Shown one piece after another: positions 10,330 to 64,000 of a DNA stretch of 64,000 bases. Each line of letters begins with the position of its first letter. Position 1 is the stretch's first letter. Source of the stretch: Methanoplanus endosymbiosus (GTDB lineage Archaea; Halobacteriota; Methanomicrobia; Methanomicrobiales; Methanomicrobiaceae); contig NZ_CP096115.1 of the NCBI RefSeq assembly GCF_024662215.1, positions 124,001 to 188,000 of the forward strand, in the 5' to 3' direction. The notes under the pieces were generated by a model. That model searched no databases. It was not told the origin of the DNA and saw nothing but the letters and a program-made list of their open reading frames with translations. The position numbers and the translations under genes are program-made.

Positions 10330-11715
10330 ATGGCAGGTGAATTTCAGGAAACAATTGATATAAAGGAGCTTCTCAGAAAATATCCCAAAGGGCTGAATAT
10401 ATCTGAGATATCCAGTGCACTGCATATGCACAGAAATACCAGTGCAAAATACCTTGATATGTTAAAGCTCAAAGGTGACATTGACAGAAAACAGAGCGGA
10501 CCTTCAAAGAACTATTACCTGATACAGAGGATGCCAATTTCAGCCCTTATCAGATATACTCCATTTCCGGCAATAATACTCAGTTCAAAAAAGGAGATAT
10601 TAATGGTGAACAGAGAAGCTCTTAATCTCCTGAAATGCCCGCTTGATGTCTTATATGGTGAAAAAATTCGGGATCTTCCATATTCACTCTTCAAAGAGAG
10701 CATAATTGAAGATCTATGTCACAATGCAGTACAGGGGCAGTCTGAGATTATTGAGAGGGAGACCCACATCCTTGGTAAAAAACTTCATCTACGCCTGCAT
10801 TTTATACCAGTAGTCTTTGATACCGGACGTGACGGCTGTGCGGTTGTGATATATGACAGTACAGAAAATATCGAAAACCTTGAAAAACTTAAGATATGCC
10901 GGAAACAGTACGAGGCAGTCACAAGTGACCAGACAGAATTTATCGTGCATATCAGCACTGAAATGATCATTATTTTTGTAAATGAGGCATACTGCCGGTA
11001 TATCGGCAGAAGTTTTGAGAGAATAACCGGTCTTCGTTTTATTCCGATGTTTCAGGCGGATGAGAGGGAGAGAGTGCAGAGTATCATCTCATCACTAAAC
11101 CCGGGGAATCATTCCGGAAACCTTGATCTTAAATCTGTCAGAAAGGATGGTGGCATAGGGTATGAAAACTGGACGTTCAGGGCTATATTTAAGGATAATG
11201 GTGATATTTCCGGTTACCACGCAATCGGCAGGAATATCACCGAACTTAAAATTAGTGAAAGCCGCCTTAGGCAGTATTATGACAACCTTGAAAAGTTGAT
11301 CCAGGAGAGAACAAATGAACTTCAGGGGGCAAACAGGAGGCTTCTTGGCGTAATCTCTGAAAAAGAAGATCTTGAACAGGAGCTTTTATTTACACAGTTT
11401 GCATTTGACCATGCTTCAGATTCAATAATTCTCTTTGATGAGGACGGAAAAGTGTATAAGGCCAACAGGACAGCCGGAGAACTTCTTGGATATTCGGATG
11501 TGGAGATGAAGTCCATATCCGTATTTGATATAAATCCTTCAATCTCGAAGGAAGAATGGCTGCATATGTGGGGGGAAGCACATCCCGGAAAGAAGGAGAG
11601 GATAATTTCAATACATGCAAAACAGAACGGAGAAATTTTTGATGTTGATGTCTCACGGAATTTTGTTCAGTACTCTGAGAGGATGTACTTCTGCTCGGTT
11701 GCAAGGGAGATCTAA
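10330..11715 (+). CDS. Winged-helix regulator with three PAS domains
   Basis: A 461-residue soluble protein. Residues ~10-65 form a winged helix-turn-helix (GLNISEISSALHMHRNTSAKYLDML). A PAS domain at ~70-190 and a second at ~195-310 (FIVHISTEMIIIFVNEAYCRYIG) follow, then a coiled coil (~310-350) and a third PAS (~355-461). There is no kinase domain, so it looks like a one-component sensor-regulator. It is divergent from acs-satP with palindromes between them, so control of acetate use is a reasonable inference, not shown. Confidence 0.85.
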   Translation: MAGEFQETIDIKELLRKYPKGLNISEISSALHMHRNTSAKYLDMLKLKGDIDRKQSGPSKNYYLIQRMPISALIRYTPFPAIILSSKKEILMVNREALNLLKCPLDVLYGEKIRDLPYSLFKESIIEDLCHNAVQGQSEIIERETHILGKKLHLRLHFIPVVFDTGRDGCAVVIYDSTENIENLEKLKICRKQYEAVTSDQTEFIVHISTEMIIIFVNEAYCRYIGRSFERITGLRFIPMFQADERERVQSIISSLNPGNHSGNLDLKSVRKDGGIGYENWTFRAIFKDNGDISGYHAIGRNITELKISESRLRQYYDNLEKLIQERTNELQGANRRLLGVISEKEDLEQELLFTQFAFDHASDSIILFDEDGKVYKANRTAGELLGYSDVEMKSISVFDINPSISKEEWLHMWGEAHPGKKERIISIHAKQNGEIFDVDVSRNFVQYSERMYFCSVAREI

Positions 11716-55309: not shown

Positions 55310-55708
55310 ATATTGCAGAATCTCAAATGCAAACGAATTCAGGGATAAGTCCTGGATTTCCTTTTTTCCCGAAACAGGTTATGAAACATGAAAACAATAT
55401 ACTTAAAGAAAATGTGCCAGAACCAAAATTTGTTAGGTTGGAGCACATGCTCAATATTGCCGATTGTGAAAATAGTGATAACTTTGTAATGTTAAATATG
55501 CTGCATATTATGTAGTGCGTTTGATATTTAATATTATATGCTTTGAATGGATTTTACTAAAAAAGGCCTATTTCTATTGGAAAATTTTCCAAATTTTTTC
55601 ACTGTAACTGAAAAATCCGACTGTGCCTTTAGGAGATACTTTTTACTGGGATACTCTTTTAAACCCTATCGTTATATTATCATATAATTGCGATGGGGGA
55701 ACTGTCAT
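55310..55708. other. Intergenic region upstream of the ATP synthase operon
   Basis: 399 bp. It contains a 16-bp perfect palindrome (separate entry) and, near 55671-55688, TTATATTATCATATAATT, which is placed to act as the ATP synthase promoter. A 62-codon frame at 55327-55515 has no good start signal or similarity. Confidence 0.55.
55577..55592. promoter_or_regulatory. Perfect 16-bp palindrome upstream of the ATP synthase operon
   Basis: TTGGAAAATTTTCCAA, about 95 bp before the promoter-like TATA region of the ATP synthase operon. Possible regulator site. Confidence 0.4.
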
Positions 55709-56071
55709 ATGCCGTTTCATGAGATCGAACTTATAAAAAAATGTGAAGAAGAAGCCCTGAATCTAATCAGTGAGGCAAAAAAGGAAGCTGAAGCATCCCT
55801 TAGTGAGGCAGAAGCCAGGGGGAGAGAGATTATCAGAGCTGAAACTGAGCGTGCCGGTGAAGAATGCCGGCAGCTTTCAGCATCGTCTCTTGAGATAACT
55901 GCCCAAAAGAGGGAAAAAATTCTTAATGAGGCAGAAATCCGGGCAGAAACACTCAAAAAAAACTGTGCAGAGAGGCACGAACAAGCAGTAGCATATATTG
56001 TGAATACTGTCACAGGAGAAATTCATGCTGACTCCGGCACCGATGTGCAGGCTTACAATTCTGGTCCATAA
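55709..56071 (+). CDS. atpH: A-type ATP synthase subunit H (peripheral stalk)
   Basis: A 120-residue, highly charged, almost wholly alpha-helical protein (KKCEEEALNLISEAKKEAEASL and following). It pairs with subunit E in the peripheral stalk. ATG 55709 follows GGGGGA; a TTG at 55688 would add seven residues. It is the first gene of the operon and overlaps atpI by 47 bp, so translation is coupled. Confidence 0.82.
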   Translation: MPFHEIELIKKCEEEALNLISEAKKEAEASLSEAEARGREIIRAETERAGEECRQLSASSLEITAQKREKILNEAEIRAETLKKNCAERHEQAVAYIVNTVTGEIHADSGTDVQAYNSGP

Positions 56072-58001
56072 AAACGGCGAAGAGAAACTCATTTCCAGGC
56101 TGCATGAGTCAGGATTAATTGAGGTGACAGATATTGCAGATGCTCCGGAAGATCTGAAAAAACTTCTTGGAGGTAAGCAAAAACGCCTCGATAAACGAAT
56201 AGCTGAGCATAAGTCCTTTCTTGAACGCGGCATAGATGCCTTAAAGGAAGAGCCTCCGGGAGGATTTGGGGAAATTATGGCATATTTCTCCCCAAAAATC
56301 CAGAAAAAAACAGTTGTCACGGAGAGGAGCCTGTCGGAAATCGAGGCTGATCTCCTGATAATTAAGCCTGAGATCCAGCAGGCAGTCTCACTCAGAACAA
56401 CAGCTGAGGAGGCACGGGAGGAGCTTGGGCGGCTGAAGGATGAACGGGCACTGCTGACTCTCCTAATCCCGTTTGATTTTGATCTCAGCTACCTTGGCAG
56501 ATCGGAATTTCTTTCAGTCCGGGCAGGTTTTTTTGAGAAGGAAGAGGCCGGACTACTGAATAAAGAACTTACCGGACGTGGAATTGACGGATATATTCTC
56601 AGGCAGGCAGAGGTTGAGGGTGGAGAGGTTATTGTCATAGCCTCACTCTTCCGCTGCTCGGCTGAGGTGGAGCGGGCACTCAAAAAATTCTCATTTCGGG
56701 AGTTTAATCCCGGAATTTTATCCGGTAAACCTGATGAGGTTATAGCGGGAATTGACAGGGAGACAGAAGAACTTGAAGAGAAGATACATACAATACGTGG
56801 AGAGCAGGAAAAGCTGAGAAAGAGGGATCTTTTGGCATTTCAGGCCCTTCATGAGGAGTTTGCAGTACTTCGCAGCCGTGAAGAGGGACTTTTGCATTCT
56901 GACTCAGAGAAGGATCTTACTGTAATCAGGGGCTTTGTTCCTGAAAAGGAGAAAGAAGAGCTTAAAGAACTCTGTGATAATGCCTCATCCGGACTTTCAC
57001 TCTGTATATTTGAGCGTGTTGATCCGGAATCTGAGGAAATTCCTGTTCTCTGTCATCACCATCCGGCCATCCGTCCGTTTGTCATGCTTACAAAGCTCTT
57101 TGCAACACCGCAATACGGGGAGACAGACCCGACACTCTTTTTAGCCCCTGTGCTTGTGATAACATTCGGAATCATGCTTGGTGATGTCGGCTATGGTCTT
57201 TTGCTTGTCATACTCAGCGCCCTTATACTGAACGGAGCCGGGAGGGAGGAGGGTGATCTCCGTGATCTCACCCTTGTTCTTCTTGCATGCGGATTTTCAG
57301 GGATATTTTTCGGGTTTCTTGAAGGTGGGTTCTTCGGTGACCTCCTGCCACAATTTGCCGGGGACAACTACATTCCCGGAATCATAAATCCGCTTGAGGA
57401 CCCTATCCGGATGCTCACCATAGCCCTGATATTCGGCATTCTGCATCTCAATGCCGGCCTTATACTCGGAGCCAGAAAAAACCTGATGGCCGGCAATAAG
57501 GCAGGGATGCTCAGAGAACAGGGAGTGTGGTTCATGCTTGAGCCTTGTGCCGCCGTTTTGATCTTTATATTCTTTGGCTGGGCGGATTTCGGCTGGAGCG
57601 TAAAATATGCGGCGGTTGCAGGAACTATAATCTCGGTAGCTGTCATAATGCTCTCTGAAGGGCCTCTTGGATTCTTCAGCCTGACTGGCTTTCTTGGGGA
57701 CTGGCTCTCCTACTCCCGCATACTGGCACTGGCTCTCGCAACCGGAGGTATAGCAATGACAATTAATATTATAACCGGCATGATGGCCGGCATAGGTGAA
57801 ATATTCGTAATTGCCGCAGCCGTATTCTGCATTGCAGGCCATATGATAAACTTCATCCTCCAGGTGCTTGGCGGCTTTATTCATTCACTGAGGTTGCAGT
57901 ACGTTGAGTTTTTCGGAAAGTTCTATGAAGGGGGCGGTGAGAGCTTCAGCCCCTTCTCATATAAGAGAGTTTATACTATACAGGAGGGTGATACGAAATG
58001 A
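56025..58001 (+). CDS. atpI: A-type ATP synthase subunit I (membrane stator, a-type)
   Basis: 658 residues. The N-terminal half (~1-340) is a soluble helical, coiled-coil domain that contacts the peripheral stalks. The C-terminal half holds seven or more membrane segments, beginning near TLFLAPVLVITFGIMLGDVGYG, and the family end segment LQYVEFFGKFYEGGG. The conserved Arg needed for ion translocation is expected in the penultimate helix region (YSRILALALA). Together with the K ring it forms the ion path. The ATG at 56025 follows GGAGA. Confidence 0.9.
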   Translation: MLTPAPMCRLTILVHKNGEEKLISRLHESGLIEVTDIADAPEDLKKLLGGKQKRLDKRIAEHKSFLERGIDALKEEPPGGFGEIMAYFSPKIQKKTVVTERSLSEIEADLLIIKPEIQQAVSLRTTAEEAREELGRLKDERALLTLLIPFDFDLSYLGRSEFLSVRAGFFEKEEAGLLNKELTGRGIDGYILRQAEVEGGEVIVIASLFRCSAEVERALKKFSFREFNPGILSGKPDEVIAGIDRETEELEEKIHTIRGEQEKLRKRDLLAFQALHEEFAVLRSREEGLLHSDSEKDLTVIRGFVPEKEKEELKELCDNASSGLSLCIFERVDPESEEIPVLCHHHPAIRPFVMLTKLFATPQYGETDPTLFLAPVLVITFGIMLGDVGYGLLLVILSALILNGAGREEGDLRDLTLVLLACGFSGIFFGFLEGGFFGDLLPQFAGDNYIPGIINPLEDPIRMLTIALIFGILHLNAGLILGARKNLMAGNKAGMLREQGVWFMLEPCAAVLIFIFFGWADFGWSVKYAAVAGTIISVAVIMLSEGPLGFFSLTGFLGDWLSYSRILALALATGGIAMTINIITGMMAGIGEIFVIAAAVFCIAGHMINFILQVLGGFIHSLRLQYVEFFGKFYEGGGESFSPFSYKRVYTIQEGDTK

Positions 58002-59449
58002 CAGTTATAACTCCCGGCCTTGCACTCGCAGTTATCGGAGCCGGAACTGCTGTAGGAATGGCAGCTGTCGGTTCAGGGATAGGGGTTGGAATTGCGGGTG
58101 CGACCGGTGCAGGTGTAACCTCAGTCAGGCCGGATAAGTTTGGAAAAGCACTTGTTTTTCAGGCAGTTCCACAGACACAGGGCATATACGGGCTGCTTGT
58201 TGCAATCCTGATACTTCTCTCCACCGGAATTATCGGCGGAACAGGTGAGGAGATCTCCATTGCATCCGGGCTTGCGGCACTCGGAGCCGGTATAGCCGCA
58301 GGGGTCTCCGGCCTCTCGGCAATCGGACAGGGGATAGCTGCATCGTCAGGGATTGCAGCAACAGCAGAGCGTGATGAGGCGCTTGGAAGGTCACTTGTTT
58401 TCTCAGTTATCCCTGAGACGCAGGCTATATACGGGCTGCTTGTAGCTATTTTAATTCTTGCCTTCTCAGGGCTTTTATCCGGAAGTCCGGTTGCTACCAC
58501 TGCCACCGGGCTTGCAGCTGTCGGCTGTGGTCTTGCTGTTGGTCTTGCCGGACTTTCCGCAATCGGGCAGGGGATAGCAGCTTCCGGGGGAATTGCCGCA
58601 ACGTCCGAGAGACCGGAGATCTTTGGCAAGGCGCTTGTCTTCTCAGTAATTCCTGAAACCCAGGCTATATACGGGCTGCTTGTTGCAATACTTCTCATGA
58701 CATTCACCGGAATTGTTACAGACAGTCCGGTGTCAGATGTTTCGCTCGGCATTGCAGCAATCGGCTGTGGTCTTGCTGTTGGTCTTGCTGCCATATCTGC
58801 CATAGGCCAGGGCATTGCCTCTGCTGCCGGAATTGCGGCAACGGCAGAGAAGGACTCTATGTTTGGACGGGGTCTTGTCTTTTCGGTCATACCGGAGACA
58901 CAGGCTATATACGGGCTGCTTGTTGCAATACTTATTATGGCCTTTACCGGCATAGTCACCGGAGATATTACTACGAGCATTGCTGCCGGAATGGCTGCCA
59001 TTGCTTCGGGCATTGCCGTTGGTCTTGCCGGATTTTCAGGCATAGGGCAGGGAATTGCCGCATCGTCTGGTATATCGGCAACTTCAGAGAAGGATTCCAT
59101 GTTTGGAAAATCCCTTGTTTTCACTGTCATCCCTGAAACCCAGGCTATATACGGGCTGCTTGTTGCAATCCTCCTTATGGCTTTTACGGGAATAATCACA
59201 GGCGATGTTACAATAACAGCGGCAGTCGGCTTTGCATCACTCGGCTCCGGAATAGCAGTCGGTCTTGCCGGACTGTCGGCAATAGGGCAGGGAATGACTG
59301 CCGCATCCGGAATTGCGTCAACCACTGCACGGGCAGAAGCGATGGGCAGAAGCCTTATTTTTACTGTAATGGCAGAGACCTTTGCTATATTCGGCCTCCT
59401 TATTGCAATTCTGATCATGTTTGGCATCGGCCTCTTTAACGGAGGATAA
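57998..59449 (+). CDS. atpK: A-type ATP synthase subunit K: six-hairpin proteolipid
   Basis: 483 residues made of six fused two-helix hairpins with an 80-residue period. Ordinary proteolipids have one or two. Hairpins 2-6 each have SAIGQG (Gln111, 191, 271, 351, 431; SGIGQG in the fifth) in the first helix and a carboxylate in the second (PETQ Glu140, 220, 300, 380; AETF Glu460). These are ligands typical of sodium-binding rings. In hairpin 1 the Gln is Val30 and the Glu is Gln59, so it has no ion site. DNA around AGGCTATATACGGGCTGCTT is the same in four hairpins, showing recent duplication or gene conversion. Starts overlapping atpI (ATGA). Confidence 0.95.
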   Translation: MTVITPGLALAVIGAGTAVGMAAVGSGIGVGIAGATGAGVTSVRPDKFGKALVFQAVPQTQGIYGLLVAILILLSTGIIGGTGEEISIASGLAALGAGIAAGVSGLSAIGQGIAASSGIAATAERDEALGRSLVFSVIPETQAIYGLLVAILILAFSGLLSGSPVATTATGLAAVGCGLAVGLAGLSAIGQGIAASGGIAATSERPEIFGKALVFSVIPETQAIYGLLVAILLMTFTGIVTDSPVSDVSLGIAAIGCGLAVGLAAISAIGQGIASAAGIAATAEKDSMFGRGLVFSVIPETQAIYGLLVAILIMAFTGIVTGDITTSIAAGMAAIASGIAVGLAGFSGIGQGIAASSGISATSEKDSMFGKSLVFTVIPETQAIYGLLVAILLMAFTGIITGDVTITAAVGFASLGSGIAVGLAGLSAIGQGMTAASGIASTTARAEAMGRSLIFTVMAETFAIFGLLIAILIMFGIGLFNGG

Positions 59450-59452
59450 GAG

Positions 59453-60037
59453 ATGAGTGCTGAAGCAATTATGCAGGAGATCAGGCGTGAAGCGGAAGAG
59501 AGAGTTGCAGCAGTAAAAAAAGAGGCTGAAGAGAAGAATAGAGAGATCATTAATGAGGCACGAAGGGAGGCAGAAGCAGAGTATGCTGCTGTCATGAAAG
59601 AGGGCTTAAGAGAGATCCGGGAGGAGGAGAGGAGGCTCATATCACTGGCAAACCTTGAGGCAAATGAACTTGTAAGGCAGATAAAGGAGAAAGGAATTTC
59701 AAACTGTTTCTCAGAAGCAGAGAGAATCCTCTCTGAGATCTCTTCATCCGGAAACTATCCTGCCATCCTTGCCCGTCTCATTGAGGAGGGAAAGGCAGCT
59801 ATAGGTGAAGATGAACTTTTTGTGCTGACACGAAGAGAGGACAGAGAGCTGGTGAAAGGTCTTATTCCGGCATTTAACGGGCTTAATATGGATGATGTGG
59901 AGATCCGGGACGCAGGTGTGGTTTTACGTTCAGCCAGGCTTAATATCCGGATTGATCAGACCTTCCCTGAACGACTGAAGCGGCTGAAGAAGAGACTGAC
60001 ACATGATACAGCAGTGATGCTCTATGACAGAGTTTGA
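59453..60037 (+). CDS. atpE: A-type ATP synthase subunit E (peripheral stalk)
   Basis: 194 residues. The N-terminal half is a charged helix (IRREAEERVAAVKKEAEEKN) and the C-terminal half a globular domain with the segment DDVEIRDAGVVLRSARLNIRIDQTF, typical of subunit E, which caps the A3B3 head. GGAGG precedes the ATG. It overlaps atpC by 14 bp. Confidence 0.88.
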   Translation: MSAEAIMQEIRREAEERVAAVKKEAEEKNREIINEARREAEAEYAAVMKEGLREIREEERRLISLANLEANELVRQIKEKGISNCFSEAERILSEISSSGNYPAILARLIEEGKAAIGEDELFVLTRREDRELVKGLIPAFNGLNMDDVEIRDAGVVLRSARLNIRIDQTFPERLKRLKKRLTHDTAVMLYDRV

Positions 60038-61181
60038 ACCCGGAGAAGTACTCTCTGATCTCATTTCCGGCTCATTTTCCGGAGAGAGTGGCGAATATGC
60101 AGTAATTCTCTTTGTATTCGTGATATTCATAGCCATTATCATCGGTGCTGCAATATCATCGGGTTATATAAGGCTGATACTGAATATTGCAGGTTTTGCC
60201 CATCCTGTGGCAAGGGTAAGGTCTATCGGAAATCCGCTTGTTGAGAAAGAGAAGCTTAGGATACTTGCCGAATCCCATTTCCCCGATGAGATGATGGAGC
60301 ACCTGCGGCAGTTTGGATATGAGATTCCCCTGCACAGGATGTACACAGAAGATGAGAGCGAGCGTTTTCTGCGGGAGGAATATTACCGGTCAATGGAAAA
60401 GCTCCTTGATTCTGTTCCCGGCTCTGTCAGGCCCTTTTTTATTGCATATCTGAAATTTTCCGAGGCAGAAGAGGTGAAGTACATACTCAGGGCAGCCAGA
60501 GGAGGAACTGATCTTCAGGCAGTTTCTGTCGGCCGCCTGAATACAGTTCTTATCCGAAAACTGGCTCATGCTGAGAGCAGCGGAGAGATAAAGGCAATAT
60601 TAAAGGAGCTTGACCTAATTTCTCCGGATCAGGAGATTGGGGAAATTTCAGCAGTTTCACTGGAAGAACTGATCGATCGCCACCTGTACCATTCCTTTAT
60701 TAACGCATCCGGTCAGGTTGATGTCAGCCTTGCTGAACCAATAGGACTATTTGCAGGGCATGCAGTTGATATCAGAAACTTAAAAAACATCTCCCGTGCG
60801 GTCTCTCTCGGACTTGACAGGGAGGATAAACTAAAACAGCTGATAGACGGCGGGATTGAATTTCACGGCGAACGGTTGAGGGATCTTGCATCATGCACAA
60901 CAGCAGAAGCGGTGACTGATGCCTGCCGGGGGACATTATACCAGACTGCCCTTGAGAAGGCATCAGGAAGCGGGGATCCTGAAAAGGAGATGGATAATCT
61001 GCTTCTTGAGACCGGAGCAAGCCTTGCAGTAAAATATCATCTCGGAAGCGGCCCTCTGATACGTTTTGCCTTTGCACGAAGAATAGAGCATAACAATCTG
61101 ATTATTGCATACAACGGAGTCAGTGCAGGAATGCCGGCAGAGGAGATTATGAATATGATGGCCTGGGAGGGAGCTTTATGA
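60024..61181 (+). CDS. atpC: A-type ATP synthase subunit C with N-terminal membrane segment
   Basis: 385 residues. From ~60 onward it is a V/A-type subunit C (d) protein, the funnel that seats the central stalk on the K ring (FAHPVARVRSIGNPLV, ...EIPLHRMY). Residues ~24-55 (YAVILFVFVIFIAIIIGAA) form a long hydrophobic segment, unexpected because this subunit is normally soluble. Its coding sequence overlaps atpE. No ATG close after the segment would easily remove it, although the ATG at 60291 exists far inside. Overlaps atpF (ATGA). Confidence 0.85.
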   Translation: MTEFEPGEVLSDLISGSFSGESGEYAVILFVFVIFIAIIIGAAISSGYIRLILNIAGFAHPVARVRSIGNPLVEKEKLRILAESHFPDEMMEHLRQFGYEIPLHRMYTEDESERFLREEYYRSMEKLLDSVPGSVRPFFIAYLKFSEAEEVKYILRAARGGTDLQAVSVGRLNTVLIRKLAHAESSGEIKAILKELDLISPDQEIGEISAVSLEELIDRHLYHSFINASGQVDVSLAEPIGLFAGHAVDIRNLKNISRAVSLGLDREDKLKQLIDGGIEFHGERLRDLASCTTAEAVTDACRGTLYQTALEKASGSGDPEKEMDNLLLETGASLAVKYHLGSGPLIRFAFARRIEHNNLIIAYNGVSAGMPAEEIMNMMAWEGAL

Positions 61182-61450
61182 AGCTTGCTGTAATTGGCGG
61201 CCGTAAAATCACAGCCGGATTCGCCCTTGCCGGAGTGTCCGTTCTGAGATCATGCAGAGATGAAAGAGAGGCTGAAAAAGCCCTGAAAGAGTTCGCGTAC
61301 CGGGAAGATACAGGGATTATTCTGATCGAGAGATATTATGCAGATAAGATTGTGGAGGAGGTAAACCGCTTTATGCAGATTAGAAATCCATATCCCCTTA
61401 TTGTTATAATTCCTTCATATGGTGGGGAAGGGAGAAGTGAAGATGAATAA
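61178..61450 (+). CDS. atpF: A-type ATP synthase subunit F (central stalk)
   Basis: 90 residues of the small Rossmann-like V/A-type F subunit: LAVIGGRKITAGFALAGV at the start and IILIERYYADKI, then YPLIVIIPS. It binds the D subunit in the central stalk and can regulate ATP hydrolysis. Overlaps both neighbours, atpC and atpA. Confidence 0.88.
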   Translation: MKLAVIGGRKITAGFALAGVSVLRSCRDEREAEKALKEFAYREDTGIILIERYYADKIVEEVNRFMQIRNPYPLIVIIPSYGGEGRSEDE

Positions 61451-63209
61451 GAGAGGAATAATAATACGAATTGCAGGCCCTGTTATCGAGGCGGAAAATA
61501 TGCGGGGTGCACAGATGTACGAACTCGTCCATGTCGGGGATAAGGGGCTTGTCGGAGAAGTAATTGCACTTGAGAGGGATGTTGCCACAGTACAGGTATA
61601 TGAAGATACAAAAGGTCTCTTTCCCGGCCAGCCTGTGGAAGGGACTGGTATGCCGCTCTCGGCAGAGCTTGGCCCCGGACTGTTGGGTATGATATATGAC
61701 GGCATACAGAGACCGCTTGAGAGTATGCGTAATTCTGTTGGCGATTTCATAATAAAGGGCACTTATATTTCCCCCCTTGATCACAAATGCCTCTGGGATT
61801 ATTCTCCGGAAATCACTGCCGGAAGCAGGGTATCAGAGGGAGATATTCTTGGAACTGTCCCCGAAGGAAATATCCTGCACAGGATCTTAGTCCCCGCAGG
61901 AACAGAGGGCGAAGTTATCCGGGCAGCACCCCCCGGACGATATACAATAGAAGAGCCTGTAGCTGTAATCAGGACAAAAGACGGTGAGAAGGTTGTAACT
62001 ATGGTCAGGCACTGGCCGGTCAGAAAGGCAAGGCCAATCGGGAAGAAGCTTGACCCGGTTGAGCCGCTCATTACAGGCCAGAGGGTTATAGATACACTCT
62101 TTCCGATTGCAAAAGGCGGCACATCAGCTGTTCCCGGCCCATTTGGAGCCGGTAAAACTGTAGTGCAGCACCAGCTTGCCAAATGGTCGGATGCTGATGT
62201 CATCGTCTATGTCGGCTGCGGGGAGCGTGGCAATGAAATGGCCGATGTGCTGCGTGAATTTCCGAGGCTTGAAGATCCAAAGACTCATGAACCGCTTATG
62301 AGGAGAACTGTCCTGATTGCAAACACCAGCAATATGCCTGTCGCTGCAAGGGAGGCGAGTGTCTATACCGGAATCACTATTGCGGAATATTACCGTGACA
62401 TGGGTTATAATGTCGCATTAATGGCAGATTCAACCTCACGCTGGGCAGAGGCAATGAGAGAGATCTCAGGAAGACTTGAGGAGATGCCTGGAGAACAGGG
62501 CTATCCGGCATATCTTGCTTCACGTCTTGCGGATTTCTATGAACGTGCCGGAAGGGCAAGGGTTCTTGGAAGCAGTGAGAGTACAGGCTCAATTTCGGTC
62601 ATAGGGGCGGTCTCGCCTCCGGGGGGAGATTTTTCAGAGCCTGTAACCCAGAATACTCTTAGGATTGTCAGGGTTTTCTGGGCTTTGGATGCAGAGCTTG
62701 CCCATGAACGGCATTTTCCGGCTGTAAACTGGCTTCTCTCGTACTCTCTTTATACTGATCTGGTATCTTCCTGGTGGGAGGAGAAGGCAGGAGGGGGCTG
62801 GGCTGAAATGAGGCAGGAGATGATGAGCCTGCTGCAAAAGGAGAGCGAACTTGAGGAGATTGTTCAGCTTGTAGGACCTGATGTGCTCCCGGAGGGTGAT
62901 CGACTTATACTGCTGACGGCAGGGATAATCAGGGACTCTTTCCTTGTGCAGTATGCAACAGATAAAGATGATCGCTACTGCGCACCATTTAAGCAGAATG
63001 CCATGATGAAGACTATTACAGGCTTTTACAGACTTGCCGGAGATGCTGTAAAGAGAGGTGTTCTGACATCTGAGATCGCAGCACTTCCGGCTTTGCAGAG
63101 TTTCACCCGTCTTGGAAGCAGGCCTGATGATGAGATACTTTCTGTCTGCAATGAAATTATACATTCTCTGAAGACAGGGATTGAAGATCTCAACGGGGAT
63201 GGTGTATAA
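61443..63209 (+). CDS. atpA: A-type ATP synthase catalytic subunit A
   Basis: 588 residues. Walker A GPFGAGKT (232-239), the non-homologous insert region characteristic of V/A-type A subunits (~115-190), the GERGNEM motif, and [20 protein letters not shown]. Catalyses ATP synthesis at the A/B interfaces. ATG 61443 was chosen because GGGAG lies just upstream and it overlaps the atpF stop; an ATG at 61419 would add eight residues. Confidence 0.95.
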
Positions 63210-64000
63210 TGGTGAAGCATGGAAGGGAGTTCTCTTCGGTAGTAAGGGTTGAAGGGCCACTGATTGCAGTGGAGGGTATTGATGATGCAGATTATGGTGA
63301 GCTTGTTGAGGTCAGGTTTCCGGATGGCACAATACAGAAAGGGGAGGTCCTTGAGACAAGGAGGGGCCTTGCAATTGTGCAGGTCTTTGGAGGCACAAGT
63401 GATCTTGATACAGATATAACTTCAGTCAGGTTTACAGGTTCGCCTATGAAGATCGGTGTCTCGCGTGAGATGCTCGGACGGGTGCTGAGCGGCCAGGGTG
63501 AGCCGATAGACGGGGGTGGAGATGTAATTCCCGATATGGTCATGGATATCTCCGGCTATTCTATTAATCCCTTTGCCCGGGAGTACCCCGAAGATTTTAT
63601 CGAAACCGGAATATCTGCAATGGATGGTATGGATACACTTGTGAGGGGGCAGAAGCTTCCGATTTTTTCAGGTTCAGGAATGCCTCATTCGCAGCTTGCT
63701 GCACAGATCGCAAGGCAGGCCCGTGTGCTTGGTGAAGAGGAGGATTTCGCACTGGTCTTTGGTGCCATGGGCATTACCTATGAGGAGGCACATTACTTTG
63801 AGCAGGAGTTCAGACGGACAGGTGCTCTTGAACATTCCGTTCTTTTCGTCAACCATGCAGATGATCCGGCAATTGAGAGAATAATTACGCCAAGGCTTGC
63901 ACTGACTGCGGCTGAGTATCTTGCCTTCCATGAGGGGATGCATGTTCTGGTGATTCTTCAGGATATCACAAGCTATTGTGAGGCACTTCGTGAGGTCTCG
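63209..64000 (+). CDS. atpB: A-type ATP synthase subunit B, N-terminal part (3' end outside window)
   Basis: 264 codons are in the window and the frame is open to the end. The start overlaps the atpA stop (TAATG). Segments are [74 protein letters not shown] as family landmarks, and the degenerate P-loop SGSGMPHSQ in place of a functional Walker A, as expected of the non-catalytic subunit. Subunit D is expected downstream. Confidence 0.93.

Follow-up and report, generated by a model that had tools for sequence, protein, structure and literature searches.

The 64,000-nucleotide stretch of Methanoplanus endosymbiosus DNA analysed here (hereafter, the window) encodes an ATP synthase rotor subunit (K) with six hairpins fused in one chain, the first of which lacks an ion-binding carboxylate. 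What ring would such chains build, how many ions would pass for each ATP, and what does the missing site represent?

The rotor subunit gene and its operon

Subunit K is encoded within a full operon of a rotary A/V-type ATP synthase, with the gene order H-I-K-E-C-F-A-B-D (Table 1). Six matches to Pfam ATP-synt_C (E 5e-95) and a reading of the frame confirmed the six hairpins that a preliminary description had placed in this single open reading frame. K shows the repeated hairpin fold with mid-membrane carboxylate of ATP-synt_C rotor subunits, with Glu in five of the six Pfam stretches, and AlphaFold2 models the chain with confidence as a repeat of helices (pLDDT 90.9, pTM 0.90). All ligands listed in the preliminary description were found by direct residue check: hairpins 2–6 contain Gln111/191/271/351/431 and Glu140/220/300/380/460, whereas hairpin 1 has Val and Gln at the equivalent places. 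Based on the criteria of Mulkidjanian (PMC2359735), the Na+-type ligand set (Gln, Glu, Thr, polar Gln) is complete at five of six positions, in agreement with the sodium-type sites proposed before. The two V-type stator arginines of subunit I are invariant. These features support the assignment of K as an A/V-type rotor subunit that has five sites per chain, with putative ligands of the sodium type.

Table 1 Features of the rotor subunit, its operon, and related twelve-hairpin chains (window positions unless a locus is given).
Feature	Position	Strand	Basis or remark
Probable subunit H/G (peripheral stalk)	55688..56071	+	Pfam V-ATPase_G_2 under its cut-off, plus operon position
Subunit I (stator a)	56025..58001	+	Profile match; both conserved Arg, R565 and R623
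Subunit K (c), rotor	57998..59449	+	ATG start; 483 aa; six hairpins; ORF read, residue check, Pfam, AlphaFold2
Val30, hairpin 1 (Gln ligand at the equivalent place elsewhere)	58085..58087	+	Residue check; invariant in 25 aligned six-hairpin K
Gln59, hairpin 1 (ion-binding Glu at the equivalent place elsewhere)	58172..58174	+	Residue check; invariant in 25 aligned six-hairpin K
Gln111 to Glu140, predicted Gln/Glu half of site 1	58328..58417	+	Partner half Thr60/Gln61 of hairpin 1; alignment with NtpK
Glu460-Thr461-Phe462-Ala-Ile-Phe465, hairpin 6	59375..59392	+	Own Glu present; Phe where Gln and Tyr would serve next chain
Subunit E	59453..60037	+	Pfam
Subunit C	60024..61181	+	Pfam
Subunit F	61178..61450	+	Pfam
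Subunit A (catalytic)	61419..63209	+	Pfam
Subunit B	63209..64000	+	Extends beyond window end
Subunit D	L008 10103-10762		After B, just outside window
Twelve-hairpin K, Thermoplasmata MAG	L158 1567-4545		6+6 tandem, ten sites
Twelve-hairpin K, Thermoplasmata MAG	L168 5595-8576		6+6 tandem, ten sites
Twelve-hairpin K, Thermoplasmata MAG	L156 7159-10212		One gap only, eleven sites

The genome (3.16 Mb, one contig) contains two complete ATP synthase operons, of which the K operon is the second. The c subunit of the other operon is a single hairpin with Gln38, Glu67, Thr68, and Val69; an aliphatic residue at the Val69 position marks H+ types (PMC2359735), and by these published criteria this subunit is predicted to be H+-type. 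Downstream of the K operon and outside the window (L008 11801-15052), a 1083-residue protein carries a tubulin/FtsZ-like GGGTGSG motif.

A collapsed or expanded repeat assembly, which the preliminary description had named as a possible source of error, was rejected because the repeat units of K are only 49–75% identical in DNA and complete six-hairpin homologues exist in other genomes (35 genes, see below). With internal hairpins at no more than 75% DNA identity, collapse of an exact repeat cannot explain the array. Compared to its congener, K shows strong purifying selection (dN 0.027, dS 0.96, dN/dS ~0.03), and a pseudogene reading was rejected on this basis.

Predicted ion sites within the chain and the gap at its junction

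In the V-type Na+ site, one hairpin provides Gln and Glu, and its neighbour provides Thr, Gln, and a backbone carbonyl; in E. hirae NtpK the ligands are Glu139, Gln110, Leu61, Thr64, and Gln65 (PMC2359735). NtpK is the best PDB relative of K (2bl2; sequence E 2.5e-21; fold 1.2 A rmsd over 150 columns), and its E139, Q110, L61, T64, and Q65 align with E140, Q111, V57, T60, and Q61 of K. The blank first hairpins of the two proteins also align. According to this alignment, hairpin 1 of K would take part in ion binding, with Thr60 and Gln61 predicted to complete site 1. Five complete sites would be internal to the chain, and the only absent site would be the one formed by hairpin 6 and hairpin 1 of the next chain.

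Hairpin 6 is also changed, with F462 and F465 at positions occupied by Gln and Tyr in the other K hairpins, and the would-be junction site appears to be broken on both sides (Phe462/Phe465 against Val30/Gln59). The Val30 and Gln59 substitutions of the preliminary description are real, but the site that it assigned as missing to hairpin 1 is more accurately an absent inter-chain site. An alignment of the units with Methanomicrobiales relatives, as had been proposed, showed no variation at V30, Q59, or F462 among 25 six-hairpin homologues, in which adjacent residues vary. The two-sided replacement by non-ligand residues probably creates a packed, ion-free interface, in which the Phe residues may serve packing.

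The junction gap across the family

The survey covered 232 genomes of the class Methanomicrobia. Fused K genes comprised 35 complete six-hairpin genes, spread across Methanomicrobiales, 13 three-hairpin genes, and one four-hairpin gene; a four-hairpin K also occurs elsewhere in the phylum, in the single-contig genome G236. Adding wider loci from named archaea and bacteria and from the phylum, 106 chains were parsed. All but two have a first hairpin without Glu, in a sample that describes this fused-K family rather than all multi-hairpin rotors, given that the search patterns favour the Glu-less type of first hairpin. The exceptions are a frameshifted fragment and a gap-free, 13-hairpin Methanopyri chain. 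Hairpin motifs follow position: [VALTI](Q/G)TQY in the first, QETQY in 258 of 269 internal hairpins, and QET(F/Y/P)F in nearly all last ones. Judged from sequence, the junction gap is a widespread rule of an archaeal and bacterial family and not a peculiarity of the K described here.

Intact chains have 2, 3, 4, 6, 12, or 13 hairpins, and none of the parsed intact chains has 5 or 7–11. Two five-hairpin candidates were rejected: L062 is a frameshifted piece of a six-hairpin gene, and in L135 a frameshift close to the end of a contig truncates the chain. One MAG (L135/L143) may encode a K of at least eight hairpins, at a locus interrupted by a frameshift and by the end of a contig. A MAG labelled Nanoarchaeota encodes thirteen hairpins with one gap and 12 sites (L122, K frame from 8766). 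In the K frames of L124 and L131, hairpins 3 and 4 meet with QETP followed by LETQ, apparently a remnant of a 3+3 fusion.

Twelve-hairpin chains and ring size

Three Thermoplasmata MAGs encode twelve-hairpin chains (Table 1). In L158 and L168, the gap is retained at the internal 6/6 junction. The two halves within each of these chains are 76–79% alike in protein and 71–73% in DNA, whereas equivalent halves are 91–92% alike between the two chains, showing that the 6+6 fusion arose long ago and has been maintained, and that it is no copy made in assembly. Together with L156, they form a natural experiment in which gap number varies and length is fixed. For a twelve-hairpin chain, only the best of five AlphaFold models reached pLDDT 83 and pTM 0.86, which does not imply ring closure. 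In L168, the subunit A frame (at 10622) has 802 residues, only the last part of which matches the catalytic subunit, possibly because of an intein.

In a tree of the A and B subunits (75–77 rows), the enzymes of Methanomicrobiales fall into a single group adjoining those of Thermoplasmata. Hairpin number changed at least nine times, excluding the L143 and L174 rows, near which forks are unreliable; sister pairs include 4/6, 3/6, and 6/12 hairpins. If sisters keep their ring size, these lengths share only multiples of 12, which would leave a ring of 12 or 24 hairpins and exclude 18. Twelve is favoured because V/A rings of this size are known from Thermus (132 chains in 11 PDB entries, twelve in each); we know of no 24-hairpin ring. 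The natural 6+6 fusions and the sister lineages with 3, 4, 6, and 12 hairpins support a two-chain, twelve-hairpin ring with ten sites, as the preliminary description had supposed, although 24 hairpins also match the lengths. K is probably the rotor subunit of a sodium-type A/V synthase in which two chains form a 12-hairpin ring that passes ten ions per turn and has ion-free junctions.

A larger ring is an unlikely alternative: three chains would give 18 hairpins, 15 sites, and 5 ions per ATP, and four chains would give 24 hairpins, 20 sites, and 6.7 ions per ATP. It draws on the nearest solved relative, NtpK, in which ten two-hairpin chains (50 chains in 5 PDB entries) make up a wide ring of 20 hairpins, showing that ring size varies across the wider family. 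However, chains of 12 or 4 hairpins, as present in close relatives, do not add up to 18, and 24 hairpins would require two 12-hairpin chains and a very large ring; those of Thermus have 12 hairpins. The gapped 13-hairpin chain and the possible chain of eight or more hairpins also count against twelve. Nine independent outcomes between 2 and 12 would all divide 12 with a chance of ~0.001, a figure that deserves little weight because doubling makes the outcomes non-independent; doubling alone, without any ring constraint, could have produced lengths of 3, 6, and 12.

Ion ratio and the role of the gaps

We propose that K carries the ions in the rotor of this second A/V ATP synthase, whose sodium type and direction of catalysis are predictions. 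Each chain would span six hairpins as an arc and contain five complete Na+ sites, and two chains would close the twelve-hairpin ring, with ten ions per turn, or ~3.3 per ATP. The preliminary description regarded this ratio as unusual, but ten ions per three ATP is ordinary, and E. hirae NtpK, like every rotor with ten sites, has the same value. The uncommon feature would be the uneven spacing of ten sites on twelve hairpins: with two gaps 180 degrees apart, the stator would have to pass both without a carboxylate, and the ring would take eight steps of 30 degrees and two of 60 degrees. Such crossing is not guaranteed, given that the fused F-type c10 ring of thermophilic Bacillus PS3 no longer supported ATP synthesis once Glu was changed to Gln in the first hairpin alone (Mitome 2004, cited in PMC8809890). 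By analogy, the gap may be tolerated in K, with its stator arginines, because NtpK-type motors already pass a blank hairpin at each step.

More tentatively, the ring may be fixed at twelve hairpins so that each junction costs one ion; chains of 2, 3, 4, 6, and 12 hairpins would then give 6, 8, 9, 10, and 11 ions per turn, with unevenly spaced carriers, an arrangement at which a fused F-type ring failed in the test just described. A rather doubtful account treats the gap as a neutral relic of a two-hairpin, NtpK-like ancestor that gained internal hairpins while its ends stayed unchanged, leaving the gap no role beyond fewer ions. The resemblance of the end hairpins to NtpK ends, their conservation by position, and the interchangeable hairpins 2–5 fit this account, but the invariance of V30, Q59, and F462 amid variable neighbours does not, nor does the persistence of the gap in the covalent fusions of L158 and L168, although L156 shows that a chain can do without the internal gap. 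Being a history and not a rival mechanism, it can be true together with the ion-free junctions of the two-chain ring. It is also unlikely that the enzyme is mainly an ATP-driven Na+ pump in which gaps reduce the ion-to-ATP ratio: the H+-type c subunit of the other operon and the pump-like trend in NtpK towards fewer sites per hairpin point that way, whereas a rotor with ten sites per turn retains a synthase-like ratio, site number tends to rise in longer fusions, and NtpK-type enzymes are able to synthesise ATP (PMC12018189).

The usual picture of a rotary motor is a ring with even steps; fused-K rotors have gaps at fixed places, and the number of gaps per chain-set differs between sister lineages. 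Fusion length may set the ions spent per ATP. If the proposed ring size holds, it becomes testable whether the motor can move past a position that lacks its carboxylate, and whether the number of ions per ATP is tuned in cells via chain fusion instead of ring size.

Comparison with known systems

Multi-hairpin rotors have precedents. In earlier biochemical work, the M. jannaschii proteolipid reportedly had three hairpins and two carboxylates. The K triplication of Methanocaldococcus, the 13-hairpin chain of Methanopyrus, and site loss after duplication have been described (PMC2359735), and the first two were rightly cited as precedents in the preliminary description. The ProAD catalogue records Methanomicrobiales with multiple A-ATPases per genome, one predicted to be Na+-specific, and notes multi-hairpin K; its main text is without hairpin numbers, junction rule, or ring size (PMC11738941). 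In the open papers searched, we found no description of six- or twelve-hairpin chains, the two-sided junction rule, or 6+6 fusions, a faint indication that these may be new.

E. hirae NtpK shares with K the fold, a blank first hairpin, ligands spread over two hairpins, and an aromatic residue after ET in the last hairpin. However, NtpK is a two-hairpin rotor subunit with one site per chain and ten chains per ring, whereas K has six hairpins and five sites. The three-hairpin K of Methanocaldococcus (L125/L128/L130/L171), of the same family, likewise has Gln for Glu in the first hairpin and a QETF end, with sites in the other two hairpins and Ala at the inner position instead of Val. The thirteen-hairpin K of Methanopyrus (PMC2359735; Methanopyri MAG L166) also joins many hairpins in one chain but, unlike the K described here, has a site in every hairpin and no junction gap.
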